A DNA stretch of 64,000 bases, taken from assembly GCF_000169155.1 (NCBI RefSeq), contig NZ_AAWL01000003.1, positions 1-64,000 of the forward strand, given 5' to 3'. The DNA is from Thermosinus carboxydivorans Nor1. Lineage in GTDB: Bacteria; Bacillota; Negativicutes; Sporomusales; Thermosinaceae. The notes under the pieces are model-generated. The model searched no databases, was not told where the DNA came from, and was given only the letters and a program-made list of their open reading frames with translations. Shown here one piece after another: positions 8,073 through 45,274 of the stretch. Within the stretch, counting starts at the first letter, position 1, and each line of letters opens with the position of its first letter. Made by a program: the position numbers and the translations under genes.

Positions 8073-8753
8073 ATGTCTACGAGTGTACATATTGCCTGTC
8101 CCTTTCCCTCGCATATGCAGTTATCGCCGTGGCGCCTAGACCGGCCAGAATTTGCATCTATTTTAGCCATCGTTCGGGAACAGCGGTACCAACGGGGCGC
8201 TACCTTATACACCCCTGGTACACTTTTAGACGAAATATTTATCGTAAAATCTGGGTTGCTGCGCTTATACATCATTTCGCCGCAGGGTAAGGAACTTAGC
8301 TTGCCAGCCTTTGGGCCGGGTACGATGGTGTGCGAGCAAGCCTTGTTCAACGAGAAGCTTTCTTACGCCTGTGCTGAGGCGGTCGGCGAGGTGACGGTCT
8401 ACTGCCTGAGCAAAGCTGACCTGGAGGCGGTTCTCCAGAGTGATTCCAGGCTGATGCTGTTGGCGTATAAGACGATGGCGGCAAAACTGGACTATATTAT
8501 GGCCTGTCTTCATGTTTTTATGCTCCAGGACATGGAGCAGAAGGTTTTGTGGGTGCTGCGTCAGTTGGCGGCGACCGGCCGGGGTGGCGCGGAAAAGCGC
8601 GAAGGCTTGTCGGTGAAGGTGACTCATGAACAGCTGGCCGCCATGATTGGTGCTAGCCGGTCGGCCGTGACCCAGTGTCTGGACGCTATGGCGGCGGCCG
8701 GCATCATTACGAAGTCCCGTGGCCGCATTACGCTAAGCGAATTGGCAGGGTAA
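8073..8753 (+). CDS. Crp/Fnr-family transcriptional regulator
   Basis: This 226-residue regulator has an N-terminal cyclic-nucleotide-binding-type beta-barrel (about 30-120, with FIVKSGLLRLYIISPQGKE) and a long dimer helix. The C-terminal winged helix-turn-helix is at about 175-215 (THEQLAAMIGASRSAVTQCLDAM). It lacks an N-terminal four-Cys cluster, so it is not a classical oxygen-sensing Fnr; the ligand is unknown. The ATG at 8073 has only a weak upstream site (CAGGTGG). It lies just upstream of the respiratory cluster, whose promoter carries a matching inverted repeat, so it is the likely activator. Confidence 0.88.
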   Translation: MSTSVHIACPFPSHMQLSPWRLDRPEFASILAIVREQRYQRGATLYTPGTLLDEIFIVKSGLLRLYIISPQGKELSLPAFGPGTMVCEQALFNEKLSYACAEAVGEVTVYCLSKADLEAVLQSDSRLMLLAYKTMAAKLDYIMACLHVFMLQDMEQKVLWVLRQLAATGRGGAEKREGLSVKVTHEQLAAMIGASRSAVTQCLDAMAAAGIITKSRGRITLSELAG

Positions 8754-8982: not shown

Positions 8983-10482
8983 ATGCAGAAAGGGCTAAGA
9001 CTACGTCTGTCCGCGCTGTTTATCGTGCTGTGCATGGTTATGCTGATGGTTGCTCCGGCCTTTGCCAATGGCGTCGATGCAGCCGGCCGAGTACTCATGG
9101 CTAAGCCAGCCGCCAATGCGGCAGTAGTCTCAAACTTCGTCGGCTTTAAAAATGTGAAGTACGAAACCCTAACTGGTGAACATAAGGCCGTACAGGAAGG
9201 ATTAGTCATCCGTCAAAGCCGTATTGAAAATGGCAAGATTATCATTCCTAAGTCCGGCCTGTACTATACCACCCGGACTTCACCCCTACATGCTATGCGG
9301 GGTGAAAAAACACTTATTCTCGGTAAACTTTATACGCTGACTGACTATGGTACCCGCATTGACGTGCTAAAGAATGTGGAAATAAAGAAAGGCGAGGCTG
9401 TACCGTTTGGCGATGGCACCAAACGTCTCGAAGTTTCCAGCATCAGCCTGGATGACAACGGCTTTGAGGCGCCACGCGCTACGCTACAAATTCTAAAGCC
9501 GTCAGGAAACTATTATGGTACGCCTTTCCCCGTTGCAACCGATCCGAAGCTTATTGACATTACTACTGGCGCTTTGAAGAATGGGACGGCGAAAATGACT
9601 GGTTCCTACCTGCCGGGTGAAAAAGGCCAAAACTGGCAAGTAGAGTATTATGACACGCCGGTAGCTACCAGCGGCCAAAGTTACCTTGTTGTGGATGAAG
9701 TTTCTAAGAATAGCGTCAAGGTGAAAGAATTTGCCACCGGTGCGTTCAACTGGATGCTTATCACCGACAAAGACCCGGTAGAAATGGTGCTGGCTCCCGG
9801 TGAAACCGCCGCTCTGGGCAATTATACCGTGAAAGTGGTCAACATTACAGCCAGTACGGCTACGGTCGAGCTTATCGACAAAGACGGTTTCGTGACCCGC
9901 AAAGTCCTTGGTCCGGTTACGCCGGAGACCATGAAGTATATGCCGGCTGACGAGCTCAACCGGAACAAGATGATCATGCGCTCTTACGACGACGAAGTGC
10001 AGGTGCAGCTCGATGTGTTCCGAAATCCCTTCCGGAACGGCAAGGTGGCGCTGGTTGGCTACACTGACCTTATCAAGATCAATAATCCTGATCACTGGTT
10101 CTTTGATCGCCGTTTTGTTGCGCGGCCCGACACCTGAAGCACCTGTTCGTTGTATATCGAGTTGATGCTCGAAAATGACGAAGAGATCATACTCGATAAC
10201 ACCAACAACGTGTTTGTTGGGCCGAACGGATACTTCAAGATTGTTATTGACGAATTTGACGGCAAAGTCGTCAAAGCTTGGCATGTAGAGGACGCGAAGG
10301 GCAATAAGACTGGCAACCTGGCCGAACGGGCGCAAGGCAAAAATATCGACGTGCTCATTAATACGAGCAACCGTACGGTAGCTCACTTTGTTGGCAAAAT
10401 GGCTACCAAATTGATTGCTGAGCAAGAAGCCAAGATCGCTCAGCTCCAAGCTGAGCTGGCGGCAGCAAAAGCCGGTAAATAG
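8983..10482 (+). CDS. Candidate Sec-exported selenoprotein with U-x-x-C motif
   Basis: Reading TGA at 10135-10137 as selenocysteine gives one 499-residue protein. Residues 1-28 form a Sec signal peptide (LFIVLCMVMLMVAPAFA). The mature part is beta-rich and has no other cysteine before the TGA. Codon 385 is TGA, followed by Ser-Thr-Cys, so the product would carry U-S-T-C. The same frame stays open for 115 more codons and ends in a coiled coil (AEQEAKIAQLQAELAAAKAGK). A stem TCGAG/CTCGA with loop TTGATG starts 24 bases after the TGA, within the range of bacterial SECIS elements. The start has AAAGGAG ten bases upstream. The alternative is a nonsense mutation or two genes, but the downstream part has no ATG or ribosome site of its own at the break. 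I do not recognise the family. Confidence 0.65.
10157..10172 (+). promoter_or_regulatory. Candidate bacterial SECIS hairpin
   Basis: TCGAG (10157-10161) pairs with CTCGA (10168-10172) around TTGATG. A T-G wobble could close the loop to TGAT, with G in second position. The distance from the TGA to the loop is 24 nt. The stem is short, so it is weaker than the one at 44960-44978. Confidence 0.45.
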
Positions 10483-10503
10483 CGTCATATAATGTATAAG
10501 AGA

Positions 10504-10571: not shown

Positions 10572-10760
10572 ATGAACAAGTTTTTGAAAGTCGGTGTTAT
10601 TTGCTTCATGCTGGCCACTTTCGTTGGTGGCGTTGTCAGTGCCGCCATGACGGTTGACTTCAGCGGCAAACCGGCCATCGTTGTGGCCGAAGGGGAAAAG
10701 GCCGACGACCAAAAAAAACCGCAAATGCCGACCGAAGAGGAAGACTCCTGCAAATGCTAG
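10572..10760 (+). CDS. Small secreted protein with C-terminal Cys-Lys-Cys
   Basis: This 62-residue protein begins MNKFLKVGVICFMLATFVGGVVSA, a clear signal peptide, followed by a short acidic/lysine-rich tail and ends EEDSCKC. GGGGGG lies seven bases before the ATG. I do not recognise it. Its C-terminal cysteines and its place between a candidate U-x-x-C protein and a respiratory enzyme suggest a redox or metal-related role outside the cytoplasm, but this is only context. Confidence 0.65.
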   Translation: MNKFLKVGVICFMLATFVGGVVSAAMTVDFSGKPAIVVAEGEKADDQKKPQMPTEEEDSCKC

Positions 10761-10853: not shown

Positions 10854-11531
10854 GTGGACGACATCATCCGCTATACGCAAGAGCGCAACCAGGTTTACCG
10901 CTTTTTAGCCGTGGTTATTAATACTTTGCCAGACAAGACCTTTGTCAATAACCTCTGCCAGCTGAGCGCCGATGCTTTGGTGCTGCCCGCCCAGCAGAGC
11001 GGCGACGAGCGTCTTGCTACCGGTATGGAACAGGTGGTGAAATTTTGTCAGGATAGCCAAGGAGGTGACAAGGACGCCATTGCTATAGCACTCGCCGTAG
11101 ACTGGACGCGGCTATTTCGCGGCGTCCATCCTGGCTATGGACCGCCGCCGGCCCGGGCGTCCGCTTACCGGCCTTATGACTTGGAGCAACTTACCGCCCT
11201 GTACCGTGCGCATGGCCTTAAGGTGCAGTCGCCGCGCTTTGACCCTGATTATCTGGGAGTGCAGCTTGCCTTCATGGGCCGTCTCGTTGGTGAGGAAGAG
11301 CGGTACCGGCAGCAGGGACGGTGTGGACAAACTCTAGCCAAACTGATCGGGACGCAGCAGTTATTTTTGCAGGAACATTTAGCGTGGATCCCTGACTTTA
11401 CTGCCCAGGCGAAACTCTATGCCGACTTGCCCTTTTATCCCGGCGTCCTGACTATTTTGGAAGGGTTCTTGTCTGTTGAACATTTCTGGGTTGAAGAGCT
11501 CATCCATTGTACCGAGGGAGGTATTACATGA
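10854..11531 (+). CDS. TorD/DmsD-family molybdoenzyme chaperone
   Basis: This 225-residue all-helical cytoplasmic protein would bind the Tat signal and help cofactor insertion into the molybdoenzyme encoded next. The family hallmark is present: VDWTRLFRGVHPGYGPPPARASAYRP (about 83-110), followed by YLGVQLAFMGRLVGEEE and a C-terminal helix bundle. The GTG start at 10854 has CGGAGGA upstream. Its stop TGA overlaps the next gene's ATG as ATGA, so translation is coupled, which fits a dedicated chaperone. Confidence 0.88.
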   Translation: MDDIIRYTQERNQVYRFLAVVINTLPDKTFVNNLCQLSADALVLPAQQSGDERLATGMEQVVKFCQDSQGGDKDAIAIALAVDWTRLFRGVHPGYGPPPARASAYRPYDLEQLTALYRAHGLKVQSPRFDPDYLGVQLAFMGRLVGEEERYRQQGRCGQTLAKLIGTQQLFLQEHLAWIPDFTAQAKLYADLPFYPGVLTILEGFLSVEHFWVEELIHCTEGGIT

Positions 11532-14221
11532 AACTCACCCGCCGACAGTTTCTAGGAGCATCCGCGGCCGTTGGCGCCCTTGCCCTGGCATCGGGCAAGA
11601 TTGTGAATTATTTGGATAAAGACGTCTTTGCCGTTGCTGGCGAAGAGATTAAAGAAGAAACCTGGATTCCAACGCATTGTAAGGGCTGTGCGGCCGACAA
11701 CCGCTGCCACATTCTTGTGCGGCGCGTAAACGGTGTGGTCGTCAAGATTGAGGGCAATCCGGAGTCACCTACCAACTTGGGCCGCAATTGCGCCAAGTCC
11801 AATGCCGCCCTCATGACTCTATACAATCCCTATCGCGTCAAATTTCCTGTGAAGCGTACTAATCCGGAAAAAGGACTTGGCGTCGATCCTAAATGGGTGG
11901 AGATTTCCTGGGAGGAAGCTCTGGAAACGGTGGCGACCAAACTGAAGAAGGTTCGCGCCGAGGATCCCCGCAAGTTTGTTTTCATGGTAGGCCACGCCGC
12001 CAGCTTGAACATTGATACCGACGAGGCCTTTGCCCACGCCTTCGGCACGCCTAACACCATCGTCGGAGCCACTTCCGTTGCCTGCGGTGGTTCAGCTAGC
12101 CCTATCAACGTCTTAATCAACGGTGGTTACCAGGCCCGCGCCGATATGCTTTACTGTAAGTATTTCCTCAACCTAGGTGCCAACTCCCAGCAAGGGGGCA
12201 AGGGCAATACCGAAGAAATAGACGCCTTCGTCAACGCTCGTGCCCAGGGGTTGAAAGTGGTTAATGTTACGCCGGTCATCAGTCCGTCAATTGCCAAAAC
12301 GGACGAGTGGGTGCCGATTATTCCTGGCACTACGGGCTATTTTCTCTTATCTATGATTAATGTCATCATTAATGAACTCAAGGTGTGGGATGCGCCATAT
12401 CTGAAAAACCGGACCAACGCTGGCTATCTTGTCGACGAAGACGGACTATATATCCGTACCGCCGACCAACTCGACGACAAGGTGCGGGGTCAGAAACTAG
12501 GTAAACCGATGGTCTGGGATAGCGTTGCTAACGCGGCGAAAGCTTTCGACGACCCGACGGTCCAGGACGTTGCCCTGGAAGGCGTGTTTGAAGTGAACGG
12601 CAAAAAATGCCGACCCAGCTTCCAGGTTCTAAAGGAGCATGTAAAGGGTTACACACCAGAAAAAGGCCGGGACATTACCGGCATTGCACCAGAGGTCGTG
12701 CGGCGGCTGGCCCGTGAATGGGTGGACAACGCTCAAATCGGCCGAACCATTATCATAGACGGTGTGACTTACCCCTACCGGCCGGTAGCTGTCATTGCCG
12801 AACAGGGGGCTAAGTGTCATGTGGACAATTATTTTGTCGTCCATGCCGCAAAAATTCTGGCGCAAATTGTGGGTGCCACCGATGTGCCCGGTTCGGCCAA
12901 AGCAGCCGGACGGCCCTTTGTCACAATTAATCCGGTGGATGGCATGAACACCTGCCGGGAGTTTTACTATCGACCCCTGAAAAAAGTGCCGGATAAGATT
13001 AGCCTGGAAGACCATTCGCCTATTCCTGGATCTTCGTCCGGTTTGGCCTGGATCACGATGAAGGACCCCAAGGCCTATGGGTTTGAGTATACGCCCGAGG
13101 TGCTGGGAATATGGGGAGGTAATCCGCAGGCACTGTTAGGCGACCCTAAGCATCTTGACGAAGTATTTCGCAAGTTTTCGTTTATCTTTGCTATTTCTTA
13201 TGAATTCGACGCGCCTACTGAGTATGCCGATATCGTGCTGCCGGAAAGCAGCTGGCTAGAGCGGTACGGAATAAGCGCCTTAGCGCCGCGAACCTCCTTT
13301 ACTAGTGCTTTTCGGGAAAAAGGAACTTATGGTCTGGCGCTGCAGCAGCCGGTATTGGAAAAACCGCTGTATAATACCAAAGAAGGCAATCAAATCATCC
13401 TAGAACTCAGTGAACGCCTCGGCATCCTTAAGGGACCCAATGGTGTGCTGGCGCAGCTTAATAGCGGTCTGCGCCTGGGCAAGTACAGTTTGAACGTCGA
13501 GAAGACCTATACCTGGGAAGAAATCATGGACCGGCAGTGCAAGGCCAAGACCAATGGCATGTATGACCTTGCCTGGTTCAAAAAAAATGGCTTACTCCTT
13601 GTCAAAGCCTTTGGCGTTAAAGAATATTACGGCTACTCCCGGTTTCCTAAGGCCCGTTTTCCCCTCTATATCGAGGAGTTCGCCTCCCACCGCCAGCGGC
13701 TGGAACGCGAACTGGCGGAGAAAGGGATTGTCCGGCGGCCCGGCAATGACTTTGTGTTAAAATATTTCGCCCCGCTGCCGAGTTGGGAGCCCCATCCTGA
13801 ACATAAAGCAGCGGGTGAATTCGACCTGTACTGCATTAACTATAAAAACATGCAGCATCATTTTGCTTGCAATATTAGCAATCCCTGGCTGATGGATCTC
13901 ACCGTTGCCCAGGATCCCTATTCGCTGCATATTGTTATGAACGCTGCCACCGCTCGCCAGCGGGGTTTGAAGGACGGCGACCTGGTAGAACTTACTTCTT
14001 TTACGGGTGGTAAGGTGCAGGGTAAAATCAGGACCAGCCAGGTCATCCATCATGATGTGTTGGCAATCGCCGGTGCCTACGGGCATCGTTACGCCAACAC
14101 CAATCCGGCGACAGCAGTCGGTCCGGCCTTTGTCGACCTCCTGAAATTGTCAGAGGAGTATATAAACCCGCTGAAAATCTGTCTTGACCGGGATACTAAA
14201 GTAAAGCTACAGAAGCTGTAA
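11528..14221 (+). CDS. Molybdopterin oxidoreductase, catalytic subunit (Psr/Phs/Ttr-like)
   Basis: This 897-residue enzyme starts with a twin-arginine signal (LTRRQFLGASAAVGALALASG) and so acts outside the cytoplasmic membrane. An N-terminal 4Fe-4S site follows with C51, C54, C60 and C88; the spacing C-x2-C-x5-C is two longer than the usual C-x2-C-x3-C. The likely Mo ligand lies in TSVACGGSA (about 190). The C-terminal dinucleotide-binding domain starts near 760 (PWLMDLTVAQDPYSLHIVMN). Overall it fits the complex iron-sulfur molybdoenzyme group (polysulfide, thiosulfate, tetrathionate or arsenate reductases). The substrate cannot be assigned. The ATG at 11528 has GAGGGAGG upstream and overlaps the chaperone stop. 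Confidence 0.9.
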   Translation: MKLTRRQFLGASAAVGALALASGKIVNYLDKDVFAVAGEEIKEETWIPTHCKGCAADNRCHILVRRVNGVVVKIEGNPESPTNLGRNCAKSNAALMTLYNPYRVKFPVKRTNPEKGLGVDPKWVEISWEEALETVATKLKKVRAEDPRKFVFMVGHAASLNIDTDEAFAHAFGTPNTIVGATSVACGGSASPINVLINGGYQARADMLYCKYFLNLGANSQQGGKGNTEEIDAFVNARAQGLKVVNVTPVISPSIAKTDEWVPIIPGTTGYFLLSMINVIINELKVWDAPYLKNRTNAGYLVDEDGLYIRTADQLDDKVRGQKLGKPMVWDSVANAAKAFDDPTVQDVALEGVFEVNGKKCRPSFQVLKEHVKGYTPEKGRDITGIAPEVVRRLAREWVDNAQIGRTIIIDGVTYPYRPVAVIAEQGAKCHVDNYFVVHAAKILAQIVGATDVPGSAKAAGRPFVTINPVDGMNTCREFYYRPLKKVPDKISLEDHSPIPGSSSGLAWITMKDPKAYGFEYTPEVLGIWGGNPQALLGDPKHLDEVFRKFSFIFAISYEFDAPTEYADIVLPESSWLERYGISALAPRTSFTSAFREKGTYGLALQQPVLEKPLYNTKEGNQIILELSERLGILKGPNGVLAQLNSGLRLGKYSLNVEKTYTWEEIMDRQCKAKTNGMYDLAWFKKNGLLLVKAFGVKEYYGYSRFPKARFPLYIEEFASHRQRLERELAEKGIVRRPGNDFVLKYFAPLPSWEPHPEHKAAGEFDLYCINYKNMQHHFACNISNPWLMDLTVAQDPYSLHIVMNAATARQRGLKDGDLVELTSFTGGKVQGKIRTSQVIHHDVLAIAGAYGHRYANTNPATAVGPAFVDLLKLSEEYINPLKICLDRDTKVKLQKL

Positions 14222-14241: not shown

Positions 14242-14847
14242 ATGGCACGGTATGGTATGGTGATCGACCTCCGGCGCTGTGTAGGCTGTTATGCCTGCGT
14301 GATGGCCTGCAAGGCAGAAAACGCTACGCCGCCGGGGGTATTTTGGAATAAAGTCTATGTAAAGGAAACGGGGCAGTACCCCAATGCCCGTATGACCTTC
14401 CTGCCCGTCTTGTGTAATCACTGCGCCAACCCTCCCTGTTTGGCTGTGTGTCCGACTGGAGCGACCTATAAGCGCCCGGATGGCATTGTGGCGCTGGATG
14501 CGGGCAAGTGTATGGGCTGTGGCTATTGTGTTGTCGCCTGCCCTTATCAGCAGCGTGTCATTACTGAGATCAAGCCCTATTATCCCAAACACGGTTTGAC
14601 GCCGCTTGAACAACATGGCTATAAAAAACACCGCTCCGGCACGGCTACCAAGTGCACTTTTTGCTTGCACCGCTTGGAGCAAGGAAAACAGCCGGCCTGT
14701 GTGGTGGCTTGTCCCGGCCGGGCCCGCATATTCGGCGATCTGGACGACCCGCAGAGTGAGGTGGCCAAGCTGCTCGGTTCAAGCTACACGACGCGCCTGA
14801 TGGAAAACATGGGAACCAGGCCGGCCGTCTACTACATTCCCGACTAA
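14242..14847 (+). CDS. Four-cluster ferredoxin subunit of the molybdoenzyme
   Basis: This 201-residue electron-transfer subunit holds four 4Fe-4S cysteine motifs in the order usual for DmsB/PsrB/TtrB: CVGCYACVMACKAEN, CNHCANPPCLAVCPTGA, CMGCGYCVVACPY and CTFCLHRLEQGKQPACVVACPGRA. It has no signal peptide and would be carried out with the Tat-exported catalytic subunit. AGGAGG precedes the ATG. It passes electrons from the membrane subunit encoded next to the catalytic subunit. Confidence 0.93.
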   Translation: MARYGMVIDLRRCVGCYACVMACKAENATPPGVFWNKVYVKETGQYPNARMTFLPVLCNHCANPPCLAVCPTGATYKRPDGIVALDAGKCMGCGYCVVACPYQQRVITEIKPYYPKHGLTPLEQHGYKKHRSGTATKCTFCLHRLEQGKQPACVVACPGRARIFGDLDDPQSEVAKLLGSSYTTRLMENMGTRPAVYYIPD

Positions 14848-14862: not shown

Positions 14863-15717
14863 GTGCAGTTCGTTGTGCAGACTACCTGGGGACATCTTGT
14901 AGCATGGTATCTTTTCCTGGCCGGAGCGGGTGCGGGTGTGTATATGTTGGGAATAGGCAGTAAGCTGTGGCGGCGCGATGACAGTTTGGCCCGCACCGCC
15001 TATTTTTGGGGACCGGCTCTCGTTGCTTTCGGCTCACTGCTCCTGGTCCTTGATTTGGGGCAACCGACGCGGGCGGTGTTGGCCGTTATCCGGTTCTACT
15101 CTTCCATGATTTCTATTGGTACTATCATTCTTGCCTTATTTATCTGCCTAGGCCTTTACCAGTTTTACTGTGCCTGGGCGAAAAAAGAAGCATTACCTGT
15201 CTTTGACCGCATCGGTTTTGGACTAGCTATTGGCACGGCTACCTATACGGGCCTTTTGCTTGGCGTCGTCAAAGCAATTCCGTTTTGGAACAACCCGCTG
15301 TTGCCAGCCCTGTTCTTGTTGTCGGCATTGTCTTCCGGCGCTGGCTTGGTCCTCGTTCTGGCCGTCATTGATAAGGGCCTCCGCGGGGTGAAAGAAACGG
15401 TGATAGTCACTGTCATGCACTTGGACCTCTGGTTGTTGTTCAGCAAAGCTTTCTTGCTTACCGCTCTTCTGGTTGTAGCCGGTACTGGCAACGCGGCTAC
15501 GGTGGCCAGTGTTGACATCCTTCTCAAAGGTTCGCTTGCTCTGCCGTTCTGGGGGCTTGTCGTGTTTGCCGGTCTGGCACTTCCGCTCTATATTGAGCTG
15601 TGCAGCAAAGACCATAGCAGTAAAAACGCTCTTATCTGCGGTTTAGGTCTCTTGGTTGGGGCGTTAGCTCTGCGCTACAGCATTGTCGTGGCCGGCGTGT
15701 GGATGCCGCTGGGGTAA
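14863..15717 (+). CDS. NrfD/PsrC-type membrane anchor subunit
   Basis: This 284-residue protein has about eight hydrophobic spans (for example at 9-30, 48-66, 78-100, 125-147 and 190-212) and matches the NrfD/PsrC quinol-oxidising anchors. It begins with the TTWGHLVAWYLFLAGAGAGVYM signature of that family. The GTG start at 14863 has AGGAGG nine bases upstream. It is the last gene of the cluster; a strong terminator follows within 15 bases. It would feed electrons from menaquinol to the iron-sulfur subunit. Confidence 0.9.
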   Translation: MQFVVQTTWGHLVAWYLFLAGAGAGVYMLGIGSKLWRRDDSLARTAYFWGPALVAFGSLLLVLDLGQPTRAVLAVIRFYSSMISIGTIILALFICLGLYQFYCAWAKKEALPVFDRIGFGLAIGTATYTGLLLGVVKAIPFWNNPLLPALFLLSALSSGAGLVLVLAVIDKGLRGVKETVIVTVMHLDLWLLFSKAFLLTALLVVAGTGNAATVASVDILLKGSLALPFWGLVVFAGLALPLYIELCSKDHSSKNALICGLGLLVGALALRYSIVVAGVWMPLG

Positions 15718-17226: not shown

Positions 17227-17268
17227 GCAGACAAGGCGGGTAGTCCGGGTCAGGAGTTGACAAAAGGC

Positions 17269-18309
17269 ATGTTGCAAGGGGAAAAGAAAAAATATATATA
17301 CATCATCATGGCCATCCTGGGGCTTGTATTTCTTGCCGGTTTTGCTTTAACCGTACTGTTTTCTGAGCGAACAGAGGAAAAGCCCCGGCGGGTGGCGGTG
17401 CTGATGTCAGGTGAATCGCGGAGGGGAAAACTGCTGGGGTTGCAGCAGGGATTGGCTGAACTTGGTTTTGTGGAGGGTAACCATATTGTGTATCAGATAA
17501 TCTCTGCCGGTGAAAACCGGCTGAGGCTTGCCGAACTGGCTTGGGATTTGGTGCGGGCGGAACCGGACGTTGTTGTGGCGCTGGGCGGTCTGGAAGTTGA
17601 CGCTGTGCAGCAAGCAGTAGAGCGCCGGTATAAAGAAACGGGGCGAACTGTAAGGGTGGTTTTTGCCGGGGTAGCATCGGCGGCGTCCCGGGGATTATAT
17701 CAAAATCCCCAACAACCGCGTTACATTACAGGGGTGGAAAACCTTGACGCCGAATTGTCGGGGAAAAGGCTTGAATACTTCAAGCACTTGGTACCAAGTT
17801 TGAAAAAGGTCGGTGTTGTTTATGAGCCGGGCATTGTTCCCAGTGAGCAAGGGGTGCAATTCGCCCAAGAAGCCGCCCAACTGCTGGGGGTGGAAGTGGT
17901 GAAATACCCTGTTCGTTCTCCTTATGACCTGCTTGCCCTGGAAACAACTCTCTTTCCTGGTGCTTGTGACGGATTGCTGCTCATGCCAAGTTTTATGATT
18001 GAGTCGGGGGGAGAAGTTTTATACCGCTTGTCGCTGGCCAAAAAAATTCCTGTTTTTGGGTTGCGGGTTAAAGATGCCTCAACCTATTATTTTGCATCCT
18101 TCGGCCCTCATGTATATCATCAAGGACGGCAGGCGGCCAGACTTGTGGCGAAAATGCTTAAGCAACGCTCGGCAGAGGATATTCCGGTGGAAACTCCGGA
18201 TCGGGTTGAACTTGTGATCAACGTCGATATTGCTCGGCGAATAGGTGTTACGTTAACGCCGGCTCAGTTGCATTATGCCGACCAGTTGGTAGGAAAGGAC
18301 TGCCAATGA
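17269..18309 (+). CDS. Membrane-anchored ABC-type substrate-binding protein (sensor component)
   Basis: This 346-residue protein has one N-terminal membrane span (YIYIIMAILGLVFLAGFALTVLF) and then a periplasmic-binding fold of the PF04392 type (VAVLMSGESRRGKLLGLQQGL, GVVYEPGIVPSEQGV). No ABC permease or ATPase follows. Instead a histidine kinase overlaps its stop (ATGA), so I infer it presents a ligand, such as tetrathionate or another oxyanion, to the kinase. An in-frame TTG at 17257 sits almost on AGGAG; the ATG at 17269 is the better start. Confidence 0.8.
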   Translation: MLQGEKKKYIYIIMAILGLVFLAGFALTVLFSERTEEKPRRVAVLMSGESRRGKLLGLQQGLAELGFVEGNHIVYQIISAGENRLRLAELAWDLVRAEPDVVVALGGLEVDAVQQAVERRYKETGRTVRVVFAGVASAASRGLYQNPQQPRYITGVENLDAELSGKRLEYFKHLVPSLKKVGVVYEPGIVPSEQGVQFAQEAAQLLGVEVVKYPVRSPYDLLALETTLFPGACDGLLLMPSFMIESGGEVLYRLSLAKKIPVFGLRVKDASTYYFASFGPHVYHQGRQAARLVAKMLKQRSAEDIPVETPDRVELVINVDIARRIGVTLTPAQLHYADQLVGKDCQ

Positions 18310-20171
18310 CTAAGATTGGAACCAGAGTATTAGCATACGGGCTGTTTATGGCATGGATGCCGCTCATTTTAATTTGCCTCTTTGTCATCTTTACCATCGG
18401 CCCCAGACTGGAAGCGGGAGTCGCCGAAAAAGCGGCAGCGAGCGCTCGTGTCAAAGCCGATGTGGTGAATGAACTGCTGATGGGAGTAGACAATCATCTG
18501 CAGGCTGTCGCAATGACCTCCCATGAGCGGCTGTTTACCATGGATGCCGAAAGCCGTCAAGCTTTGTTTTATGATCTGTTAAAAACAAATCCCCTGCTGG
18601 AAGAGGTGTATCTGCTGGACCAAAAAGGCAATTCAATTGCTTGGGTATCCCGGTGGCGGCCGACCGGGTCGGGCCAGCCGGAAAAAGCAGTAGTCAAACC
18701 GGAAAAAAAGAGTTCTTTTATTACCAATGTTCACAGAGAAAGTGACGGTAGGATCACATCGATGATTTGCACACCCATTCGTTCCACCGGCTGGCAGGAG
18801 ACCATCGGTTACTTGGGCGGCAAGGTGCGCTTGAGAGGCGTGGCCGACTTGGCCTTAACCGGTAATACGCAGGGACGGGAAAACAGTTTCATTGTTGATG
18901 AAACGGGTCAACTGGTCGGACATGAAGATTTTAGTCAAGTATTGAGCGGCGTCGATGTCCGGAAAAGTTTAGCGGTGCAAGAGTTCATGCAAACCTTACG
19001 CCGTGAGGAAACACCGGCAGCGGTTGGCGAAACAACAGCCAAACGATACGTGAATTATCAAGGGGCTGATGTGTTAGGCGCCTATGTTCCTGTGGGCAGC
19101 TGGGGATGGGCTGTAGTGGTAGAGAAAGAGCGGGATGAGGCGTTAAAACCGGTTAGGGATTGGATGGTGCGATTCTATTTTGTAGGCCTTTTTTTATCCT
19201 TATCGGCGGTTGGTATCAGTTATATTATTGCTAACAAAATTACCAAGCCCATTCGTGAATTAGAGCAAGGCGTAAACAAAATAGCCCGGGGAGAATGGGA
19301 TCATGACCTTCCGGGCGGCGGTGATGACGAAGTCGGCCGTCTTGTCAGTGCCTTTAACCGGATGTTAAAAGAGCAGCGGCAGAAAAAAGAATTGGAGGAA
19401 CGGCTGGTCCAAACGGACAAAATGGCCGCCCTGGGAACGGTCGCTGCCAGTGTGGCCCATGAAATAAACAATCCGCTTGCTGTTATTTCCGGATATAGTG
19501 AGGATATGCTCGATCGGCTGAGAGAAGGAGACAATGAGGCGCTGCTTGTCGATGGCGAAAAATATCTTTCCATTATTTGCGACCAGACGAAACGGTGCAA
19601 AAACATAATTCGGATGTGGCTCGATACGGCGCGTTTGCCTCAAGCTGAAAGCGAACCTGTCAATGTTGTGGAGACGGTAGAGGCTGTCCGGGAATTGCTC
19701 CTGTATCGTGCCCAAAAGAAGGGCGTTACCTTGCAAAAATGCCTAATAACGAATGGCGCCGGCGTTTTGCCGGTAGTCATAGCCAGTCGGGGACAGTTGC
19801 AGCAGGTATTGCTCAATTTGCTGATTAACGCGCTGGATGCTTGCGGCGAAGGCGACCGGGTCGCAATTCAGACCGAAGTAAGGGACCAAGAGTGTTTTCT
19901 GCGTATCATTGACTCCGGTGTGGGCATCCCCAAAGAAAACCTGTCTCGTATCGGCCAATCCTTTTTTACGACAAAACCGCCCGGACAAGGTACGGGGTTA
20001 GGAATATATATTGTTAATGAGCTGGTGAAAGGCTGGGGAGGCAGATTAGAGATTTTCAGTGAGGGAGAAGGCAAAGGGACGGTGGTCACCTTACGGCTTC
20101 CCCTCGCAAATAACGGGGGAGATCAGCATGGAAAACCAAACGTCAGCAGTGATTCATGTGTTGATCATTGA
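18306..20171 (+). CDS. Membrane sensor histidine kinase (NtrB-like)
   Basis: This 621-residue kinase has a membrane span at about 12-33 and an extracytoplasmic Cache-like sensor (about 35-285). A second span lies at about 292-312, followed by a HAMP domain (TKPIRELEQGVNKIARGEWDH) and an H-box VAASVAHEINNPLAVISGY with the phosphorylated His near 382. The C-terminal ATPase has N and G boxes (LLNLLINALDAC, GTGLGIYIVNELV). The start overlaps the previous stop as ATGA, and its end overlaps the response regulator gene by 44 bases. The three genes form one signalling operon upstream of ttrBCA. Confidence 0.92.
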   Translation: MTKIGTRVLAYGLFMAWMPLILICLFVIFTIGPRLEAGVAEKAAASARVKADVVNELLMGVDNHLQAVAMTSHERLFTMDAESRQALFYDLLKTNPLLEEVYLLDQKGNSIAWVSRWRPTGSGQPEKAVVKPEKKSSFITNVHRESDGRITSMICTPIRSTGWQETIGYLGGKVRLRGVADLALTGNTQGRENSFIVDETGQLVGHEDFSQVLSGVDVRKSLAVQEFMQTLRREETPAAVGETTAKRYVNYQGADVLGAYVPVGSWGWAVVVEKERDEALKPVRDWMVRFYFVGLFLSLSAVGISYIIANKITKPIRELEQGVNKIARGEWDHDLPGGGDDEVGRLVSAFNRMLKEQRQKKELEERLVQTDKMAALGTVAASVAHEINNPLAVISGYSEDMLDRLREGDNEALLVDGEKYLSIICDQTKRCKNIIRMWLDTARLPQAESEPVNVVETVEAVRELLLYRAQKKGVTLQKCLITNGAGVLPVVIASRGQLQQVLLNLLINALDACGEGDRVAIQTEVRDQECFLRIIDSGVGIPKENLSRIGQSFFTTKPPGQGTGLGIYIVNELVKGWGGRLEIFSEGEGKGTVVTLRLPLANNGGDQHGKPNVSSDSCVDH

Positions 20172-21525
20172 AGATGAGGATTCGTTTCGGTCGCTGCTGG
20201 AAAGTAGACTTAATCGCAAAGGATATTGCATAACCGCTACGGCCAGCGGCGAGGAGGGCCTGAAAGCGGCCCGAGAAAAGTCGTTTGATGTGGCACTGGT
20301 TGACATTCGCCTTCCGGGCATGGACGGCATCCAGGTACTCCAAGCGCTGCGGCAACTGCAGTCGCCGCCAGAAGTACTCATGATGACCGGCCATGGCACC
20401 ATTGAAACAGCCATTGAGGCCATGCGCCAAGGAGCATACCATTATCTGACCAAACCCTTGGATTTAAAAGAATTGGAACTGGTGTTGGCAAAAGCTTTGG
20501 AAAAACGCCGCCTTGCCGATCGGGTGGAAGGATTGAACCGGGCCCTGGACCGGCAGACAGGCGAGCCGGAGATAGTGGGAAACAGTCCGGCCCTGCTAAA
20601 GGTGATTGACTTGACGCGCAAAGCGGCTTCATGGGATATACCGGTTCTGATTACCGGTGAAAGCGGCACCGGTAAGGAATTGATAGCTAAAGCACTTCAT
20701 CATTGGAGCAACCGGAAGGGGAAGCCGTGGATTGCCATTAACTGCGGGACTTTACCAAGTAACTTGCTGGAAAGCGAACTGTTCGGCCATGAAAAAGGTG
20801 CCTTTTCCGGTGCTGTCGCTTCCCGCGTGGGACTGGTGGAAGCGGCCCATGAGGGCACGTTATTTTTGGATGAAATTGGTGAACTGGAGGTTGGCCTGCA
20901 GGCCAAATTGCTACGGTTTTTAGAGTCCGGCGAATACCGACGGATCGGCAATAACCGATTATTTAAAAGTAAGGTTCGCGTTGTAGCCGCCACAAACAAG
21001 AATTTGGAGGAAGCCATTGCTGCCGGGCAATTCCGGGAGGATCTCTATTACCGCCTTAGCGGCATGGTGCTGCGTTTACCGCCTTTACGGGAAAGACGGG
21101 GCGATATACCCCTCTTAGTACAATACTTCCTGAAACGCCGTTATCCGCATCGCCAGCCGCCCATCGATCCGTCGGTCTGGGAACGGCTGGAGGCATACCG
21201 CTTTCCGGGCAATGTGCGGGAACTGGCCCACATGGTAGACAGGGCGTGTATGCTGTATGATGGCGGGATGCTTAGCTGGCACCATTTCGTTGGCTTCTGT
21301 GACGATGGAGTTGACCGTTCCCGTAGTCACAAGCCGGCTGATTCGGCCTTTGTCTATCCGCCGGGGATGCCGCTGGAAGAGGTGCGGCGGAGGCACATCT
21401 TAGCAACCTTGGCCATGGTAGGGGGCAATAAAGCTGTGGCAGCAGAAAAACTTGGCATTGGACTCCGAACCTTATACCGGTATTTGGAGGAATGGAATTT
21501 GGCACAGCAGGATGAACTAACGTAA
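20128..21525 (+). CDS. Sigma-54-dependent response regulator (NtrC family)
   Basis: This 465-residue activator has a receiver domain (about 10-125) with phospho-Asp in VALVDIRLPGMDG, and an AAA+ domain (about 150-380) with Walker A GESGTGKELIAKALH. The sigma-54 contact loop is EKGAFSGAV (GAFSGA in place of the usual GAFTGA), followed by Walker B GTLFLDEIGEL. A Fis-type helix-turn-helix ends the protein (MVGGNKAVAAEKLGIGLRTLYRYL). GGGGGAG precedes the ATG at 20128. It is expected to switch on the sigma-54 promoter found at 21766-21783. Confidence 0.93.
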   Translation: MENQTSAVIHVLIIEDEDSFRSLLESRLNRKGYCITATASGEEGLKAAREKSFDVALVDIRLPGMDGIQVLQALRQLQSPPEVLMMTGHGTIETAIEAMRQGAYHYLTKPLDLKELELVLAKALEKRRLADRVEGLNRALDRQTGEPEIVGNSPALLKVIDLTRKAASWDIPVLITGESGTGKELIAKALHHWSNRKGKPWIAINCGTLPSNLLESELFGHEKGAFSGAVASRVGLVEAAHEGTLFLDEIGELEVGLQAKLLRFLESGEYRRIGNNRLFKSKVRVVAATNKNLEEAIAAGQFREDLYYRLSGMVLRLPPLRERRGDIPLLVQYFLKRRYPHRQPPIDPSVWERLEAYRFPGNVRELAHMVDRACMLYDGGMLSWHHFVGFCDDGVDRSRSHKPADSAFVYPPGMPLEEVRRRHILATLAMVGGNKAVAAEKLGIGLRTLYRYLEEWNLAQQDELT

Positions 21526-44914: not shown

Positions 44915-45274
44915 ATGCTTACTTTTTATTGCGTGCCCAATTGACAAACCTGCCGGAGGGCGAAAGCGTGGCTTTCGCAGCAGGGCATGGAGTTTGTCTT
45001 CCGCAATATTGCCAAAGAACCGCCGACCGAGAAAGAACTCAGGCAATTGGCCGAGTGCGGCGGTGTGGCGCTGGCCCAGCTTGTTAACACGAACAGCCAA
45101 ACTTACAAAAGGATTAAACCCGATCTTGGCCGCATGAGCGAAGAGGAGATCATCGGCCTGGAGCAGGCCAATCCTACTATGATGGTTAGACCCATAGTGA
45201 CCGATGGCCAAACTGTTGTCTTAGGCTTTAAAGAAAACGAGTATCAAATGTTGGTTACTAGCAGCCAATCTTAA
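44915..45274 (+). CDS. ArsC/Spx-family selenoprotein (UGA at the catalytic Cys)
   Basis: The gene starts at ATG 44915 after AAGGAG. It reads MLTFYCVPN, then TGA (44942-44944), then QTCRRAKAWLSQQGMEFVFRNI, and stays in frame to TAA at 45274 (119 residues). In the ArsC/Spx family this position holds the catalytic Cys of a C-x-x-C motif (like Y-x-P-x-C-s-T-C-R-k-A-k), so TGA codes exactly for that residue and gives U-Q-T-C. A perfect 8-bp hairpin with a GTG loop starts 16 bases after the TGA, as a bacterial SECIS should. A start at ATG 44987 after the TGA would lose the active site. Likely role: a thiol-disulfide/arsenate-reductase-like enzyme. Confidence 0.88.
44960..44978 (+). promoter_or_regulatory. 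Bacterial SECIS element
   Basis: GCGAAAGC (44960-44967) pairs perfectly with GCTTTCGC (44971-44978) around a GTG loop. The loop lies 23 bases after the TGA and has G in first position, the main requirements known for SelB-binding bacterial SECIS hairpins. It lies within the coding region. Confidence 0.85.

Follow-up and report, generated by a model that had tools for sequence, protein, structure and literature searches.

A probable exported selenoprotein encoded beside a Tat-exported molybdoreductase, with an extended RNA structure after its UGA codon

Many annotated proteins end at a misread UGA. The window (the whole stretch of 64,000 nucleotides of Thermosinus carboxydivorans Nor1 analyzed here) raises this question for a gene located just upstream of molybdoreductase genes: does its in-frame TGA terminate a protein or encode selenocysteine (Sec), and what could an exported selenoprotein do in such an operon? 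The frame that starts at ATG 8983 runs through 384 codons to the TGA at 10135-10137 and then continues for 114 residues to the TAG at 10480-10482 (Table 1). The initial annotation had given the TGA and the number of codons open before it correctly; its count of 115 open codons after it has to be reduced to these 114 residues. Our analysis indicates that this UGA almost certainly encodes Sec, in other words that the gene is a selenoprotein gene. The predicted product carries a clear signal peptide (about residues 1-28) followed by a beta-rich body, the Sec domain covering about residues 345-470. As already noted in the initial annotation, no Cys precedes the TGA in the mature protein: its only Cys or Sec residues are U385 and C388, C17 falling within the signal peptide. 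The extracytoplasmic location proposed at first is retained on the basis of this signal peptide, and we infer both this location and Sec decoding in the cell from sequence.

Table 1. Positions in the window of the candidate selenoprotein gene, its RNA structures and the neighboring genes.
Feature	Position	Strand	Remarks
Crp/Fnr-family regulator, upstream of the operon	8073..8753	+	PF00027 and PF13545
Predicted exported selenoprotein	8983..10482	+	499 aa with UGA read as Sec
UGA, predicted Sec385, motif PDT-U-STC	10135..10137	+	TGA/Cys column in homologues
Long hairpin, candidate SECIS core	10154..10199	+	nt 20-65 counted from the U of UGA
Small hairpin UCGAG/CUCGA	10157..10172	+	alternative fold to the long hairpin
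Invariant 7-bp hairpin CCAACAA-CGUGU-UUGUUGG	10202..10220	+	nt 68-86
Small exported protein, 62 aa, flexible acidic tail ending C-K-C	10572..10760	+	
TorD-type chaperone	10854..11531	+	PF02613, 1e-14
Tat-exported molybdoenzyme catalytic subunit	11507..14221	+	PF00384/PF04879/PF01568
Iron-sulfur (ferredoxin-type) subunit	14242..14847	+	PF13247; DsrO/ArrB/TtrB-like
NrfD/PsrC-type membrane quinol subunit	14863..15717	+	PF03916, 5e-37

Homologues came from searches of different scopes. A protein search of 100 relatives gave a sole match, in G010 (58% identity, one internal TGA), a scan of GTDB contigs gave one in a Bacillota MAG (locus L011, genome G764), a sample of the phylum yielded one in another class (locus L021 of G738) and a divergent form in G748 (locus L022), and a protein search of plasmids yielded those of Paracoccus versutus and P. 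ferrooxidans (L019 and L020). Additional searches of the class and of the phylum revealed no further members of the family, and none was found in a scan of viral contigs. The window, G010, L011 and L021 share the TGA column (57-70% identity for the last three), and the R-P-D-T-U-S-T-C-S surrounding Sec385 is identical in these four sequences. The forms from G748 and Paracoccus have a frame without interruption and a Cys exactly at this column, within the motifs Y-P-I-A-C-P-V-G-H and W-P-V-T-C-P-T-G-H, respectively. Thus, no homologue ends at the TGA and the column holds only Sec or Cys in the six aligned sequences, four genomes having TGA there and two divergent lineages Cys. These Sec/Cys pairs span Bacillota and Paracoccus. 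Since the TGA is shared by four independent genomes, a sequencing error, which the initial annotation had kept in mind, is ruled out. Reading the UGA as Trp was rejected because homologues carry Cys there, and an antisense ORF (9502-10488) was rejected as a real gene because this long antisense frame is not retained across homologues.

The initial annotation had also seen in U-S-T-C the U-x-x-C motif usual in redox selenoproteins. C388 is present in every Sec form but is a Gly in both Cys lineages. Therefore, the U-x-x-C pair is not a conserved chemistry of the family and, judging from the aligned sequences, it is restricted to the Sec branch.

The window genome carries a tRNA-Sec (anticodon UCA) gene, adjacent selA and selB genes, and a selD with its own in-frame TGA. 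Both selB and selD are also found in G010, G738, G764 and G748, and selB is carried by both Paracoccus plasmids searched. In the five genomes tested for SelD (L036-L040), the protein has an in-frame TGA within the motif G-U-A-A-K. We propose that the SelA/SelB/SelD/tRNA-Sec system of this genome would decode the UGA at 10135 as Sec, under the guidance of an RNA element that extends over roughly 90 nt after it and comprises a long hairpin and then an invariant short one.

The coding sequence is constrained on both sides of the TGA. The pN/pS ratio is 0.17-0.23 for codons +32 to +87, indicating purifying selection, and 0.21-0.40 upstream of the UGA; the downstream value is equal to or lower than the upstream one. 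In codons +1 to +30, 105 identical codon pairs were observed, compared to 53 expected for the conserved residues from each gene's own codon usage. This synonymous constraint peaks at a z of 8.6 (15-codon window), whereas windows away from the UGA do not exceed 3.9. The same test applied to SelD (from the four Sec genomes and G748) shows no comparable excess after its UGA. Therefore, the constraint found in this family is unusual even for a selenoprotein, and the role of the RNA element may go beyond that of a SECIS.

A conserved RNA structure lies directly after the UGA and does not take the standard bSECIS form in all four Sec sequences; a search of Rfam gave no match at the UGA. Its long hairpin contains 16 pairs, 95% of which are formed across the four sequences, with three pairs changed on both sides, and its arms fall in codons +7/+8 and +19/+20, which are synonymously frozen. 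Pairing reaches 97% over the complete structure, compared to 33-48% in slid controls; the shuffle control is modest with only four sequences (14/500). The folding energy is lower than that of synonymous shuffles in each of them (fractions of 0.004, 0.002, 0.024 and 0.002). The 20-mer of the second hairpin is identical in the four Sec genomes, with one copy per genome, whereas neither G001 nor the Cys-form genome G748 contains it; since this helix is invariant, it provides no evidence from covariation. The small hairpin described in the initial annotation does exist, with its loop 24 nt past the UGA (a loop UGAU can form 25 nt past it), but it is not the conserved element, which is larger and corresponds to the long and invariant hairpins. 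The small hairpin falls within the published limits of bSECIS only as a borderline case and only in the window, where its probability is 0.55 compared to 0.45 for the long hairpin; this probability is about 0 in the three other sequences, and its 3′ arm is synonymously variable. The synonymous constraint matches the long and invariant hairpins and not the small one. The window gene resembles the bSECIS consensus in having a hairpin directly after the UGA, but the conserved structure of its family extends further, and a second invariant hairpin comes after it. Such an unusually constrained element offers a test of the flexibility of bacterial Sec recoding signals.

Two other readings of the UGA and of its RNA element have to be weighed against these data. 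The UGA could be a true stop, the 110-codon ORF that starts at TTG 10150 being a separate gene or a remnant. Standard translation with table 11 indeed ends at this codon, and start-like codons occur shortly past it (TTG at +5 and ATG at +10). However, the TGA is retained in four genomes, the distant homologues are single continuous ORFs with Cys at its column, and frozen codons flank it, so that a true stop seems extremely improbable. The second reading accepts Sec decoding and adds that the element would be a selenium-responsive regulatory structure, acting in translational coupling or mRNA stability besides its SECIS role. It would account for a second invariant hairpin lying outside the usual SECIS range and for a constraint far exceeding that at the SelD UGAs of the same genomes, and the downstream genes of the operon could be coupled to read-through. 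Against it, the element is located directly after the UGA, where a SECIS must be, and the hairpin cannot be a terminator because no T-run follows it. We regard this additional regulatory role as unlikely.

Most characterized selenoproteins are thioredoxin-like. No thioredoxin-like domain was detected in this one by sequence match to Pfam, NCBIfam or PDB; the protein matches no model of Pfam, NCBIfam (20.0) or PDB, the PDB profile search giving only chance-level matches (KaiB, E 0.15). Two of its homologues show a weak, sub-threshold similarity to S_layer_N/Big_6, and the AlphaFold2 models of the complete protein and of its Sec domain, each built from a two-sequence alignment, were poor (pLDDT of 41 and 38). 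A survey published in 2026 lists 119 families and subfamilies of prokaryotic selenoproteins (PMC13188914), many of which have models in NCBIfam 20.0; the window protein has no counterpart in its Table 1, although a description elsewhere in the literature is possible. These results agree with the undescribed family suggested by the initial annotation: on this evidence, the protein very probably belongs to an exported selenoprotein family that was previously uncatalogued and has no curated model. It shares with catalogued prokaryotic selenoproteins an in-frame UGA, Sec/Cys homologue pairs and a host possessing SelA/B/D and tRNA-Sec, and many of them have a U-x-x-C as it does; it differs from them in that Sec pairs with C-P-x-G-H in the Cys forms and not with C-x-x-C. 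The DsbG-like selenolipoprotein of the Rcas_1661 family (NF041057) and other exported UxxC selenoproteins are likewise extracytoplasmic and have a U-x-x-C, but these proteins are thioredoxin-like whereas the window protein is predicted to be beta-rich and matches no thioredoxin-fold model.

The catalytic subunit encoded downstream has Cys193 as its Mo ligand according to the alignment (numbering from the listed TTG start), a residue type also found in the PsrA/PhsA/SrrA-ArrA-TtrA clade (PMC7331816). Its best NCBIfam model is PhsA, with 178 bits for a cut-off of 694, and it clears the cut-off of no curated substrate model. It shares with PsrA/PhsA/SrrA, ArrA and TtrA a Tat signal, the Cys ligand, FeS and NrfD partners and a TorD chaperone, but differs from them by scores far under the curated cut-offs and by the accompanying selenoprotein and C-x-C-tailed protein. 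These three proteins (selenoprotein, C-x-C protein and molybdoenzyme) are found together in the four Sec genomes, small exported proteins ending in C-x-C also adjoining the selenoprotein in L010, L011 and L021. The window molybdoenzyme shares 72-74% identity with its counterparts in L011 and G010, a conservation higher than that of the selenoprotein. Out of 380 genomes belonging to the class, G000 and G010 alone have an orthologue of this molybdoenzyme, and they are also the two that possess the selenoprotein; the next-best molybdoenzymes of the class (33% identity, in G017 and G022) have no C-x-C protein nearby. The G010 operon has a Crp/Fnr-like gene on its downstream side. The G738 molybdoenzyme, by contrast, is TtrA-like and is associated with a cytochrome b subunit.

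The gene of this TtrA-like enzyme (L021, 11290-14355, minus strand) has itself an in-frame TGA at codon 256 (HGST-U-GG), which aligns with the Mo-ligand Cys193 of the window enzyme; by this alignment, it apparently encodes a Sec-ligated TtrA-type enzyme, within a clade that is listed as having a Cys ligand.

The initial annotation proposed that the selenoprotein may work with the neighboring reductase. The conserved operon and the co-occurrence are consistent with this proposal, and we consider it likely that both proteins of the operon cooperate. The neighboring genes suggest that the selenoprotein would be a selenol partner or carrier in a quinol-linked pathway that reduces a sulfur or selenium compound. 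In the mechanism that we favor, the mature beta-rich protein would sit outside the cytoplasmic membrane, and its single reactive selenol (Cys in distant relatives) would work with the exported C-x-C-tailed protein and with the quinol-linked Tat-exported molybdoreductase. It would either reduce an S/Se-containing substrate or product of this reductase, or accept this compound and pass it on as a Se-S/persulfide-type adduct. Taken as a whole (exported selenoprotein, reductase partner and S/Se chemistry), this explanation appears reasonably likely, the chemistry being put forward less firmly than the partnership. The molybdoenzyme probably acts on sulfur or selenium compounds. Several leads point in this direction: PhsA is the family nearest to the window catalytic subunit, the enzyme of G738 is TtrA-like, and Cys forms lie near an ExtM-like cytochrome (G748) or near genes of TusA, DsrE, cysteine desulfurase, selA and selB (Paracoccus). 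Overall, the family is firmly linked to one molybdoenzyme. The data suggest that selenium chemistry takes part in anaerobic respiration outside the membrane, and they define an operon in which this can be tested. However, the Cys forms of Paracoccus and G748 have no molybdoenzyme next door, and therefore the partnership with a reductase is not universal.

Alternatively, the selenoprotein could act independently of the catalysis carried out by the reductase: co-expressed with the operon, it would scavenge or sense metal(loid)s or oxidants at the cell surface. This would fit its beta-rich nature and its weak S_layer_N/Big_6-like similarity, the existence of Cys forms without molybdoenzyme and the variation of the molybdoenzyme type between genomes (PhsA-like or TtrA-like). 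The co-occurrence with a molybdoenzyme that is 72-74% identical and the constant adjacency of the C-x-C protein argue against such independence, which we consider unlikely. Cooperation with the reductase could also take a more specific form, in which the C-x-C tail would be a swinging arm that moves between molybdoenzyme and Sec protein with a covalently bound S/Se intermediate, as a reductive counterpart of SoxYZ. The GGCGG arm of SoxY resembles a terminal C-x-C tail, and a short exported protein with a flexible acidic linker and a terminal C-x-C is present in the four Sec genomes; the G-C terminus of a small exported protein encoded near the G748 Cys form and the TusA/DsrE neighbors in Paracoccus would also agree with a carrier. 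The likeness to SoxYZ is nevertheless limited to a small exported protein with a terminal Cys arm beside a molybdoenzyme system: no sequence relation to the window proteins was detected, neither the selenoprotein nor the 62-aa protein matches SoxY or SoxZ in Pfam, no sulfur-oxidation genes were identified in the operon, and the direction in the window is presumed to be reductive. Moreover, such a tail might just as well act as a dithiol reductant or form a metal site. This carrier version of the favored explanation is thus doubtful. Equally tentative is the broader picture of an extracytoplasmic respiration in which molybdoreductase, C-x-C arm protein and selenol protein would pass on a covalently bound S/Se intermediate, and in which the selenoprotein would be made by means of a recoding element of two hairpins that departs from the standard bSECIS.

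Other genes were observed around the members of the family. On the large Paracoccus plasmids (L019 and L020), the Cys form is surrounded by selA, selB, trxB and genes encoding TusA, DsrE, a SufS-type cysteine desulfurase and a TusA-MetE fusion. Beside the Cys form of G748, the region 9328-11057 of L022 encodes a multihaem cytochrome distantly resembling ExtM of selenite/tellurite reduction operons, as well as an exported protein of 99 aa, predicted as coiled-coil, whose last two residues are G-C. Downstream of the window operon, the region 17257-21525 encodes an ABC_sub_bind substrate-binding protein, a sensor kinase and a sigma-54 response regulator, and an ABC_sub_bind protein is encoded directly after the NrfD gene in L011 (13486-14484). 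Elsewhere in the window, an ArsC/Spx-type protein (44915-45274, plus strand; TIGR01617 above its cut-off) has a UGA at 44942-44944 within the motif C-V-P-N-U-Q-T-C. The hairpin of its gene, GCGAAAGC-GUG-GCUUUCGC, has its loop 23 nt past this UGA, which is the textbook geometry of a bacterial SECIS.
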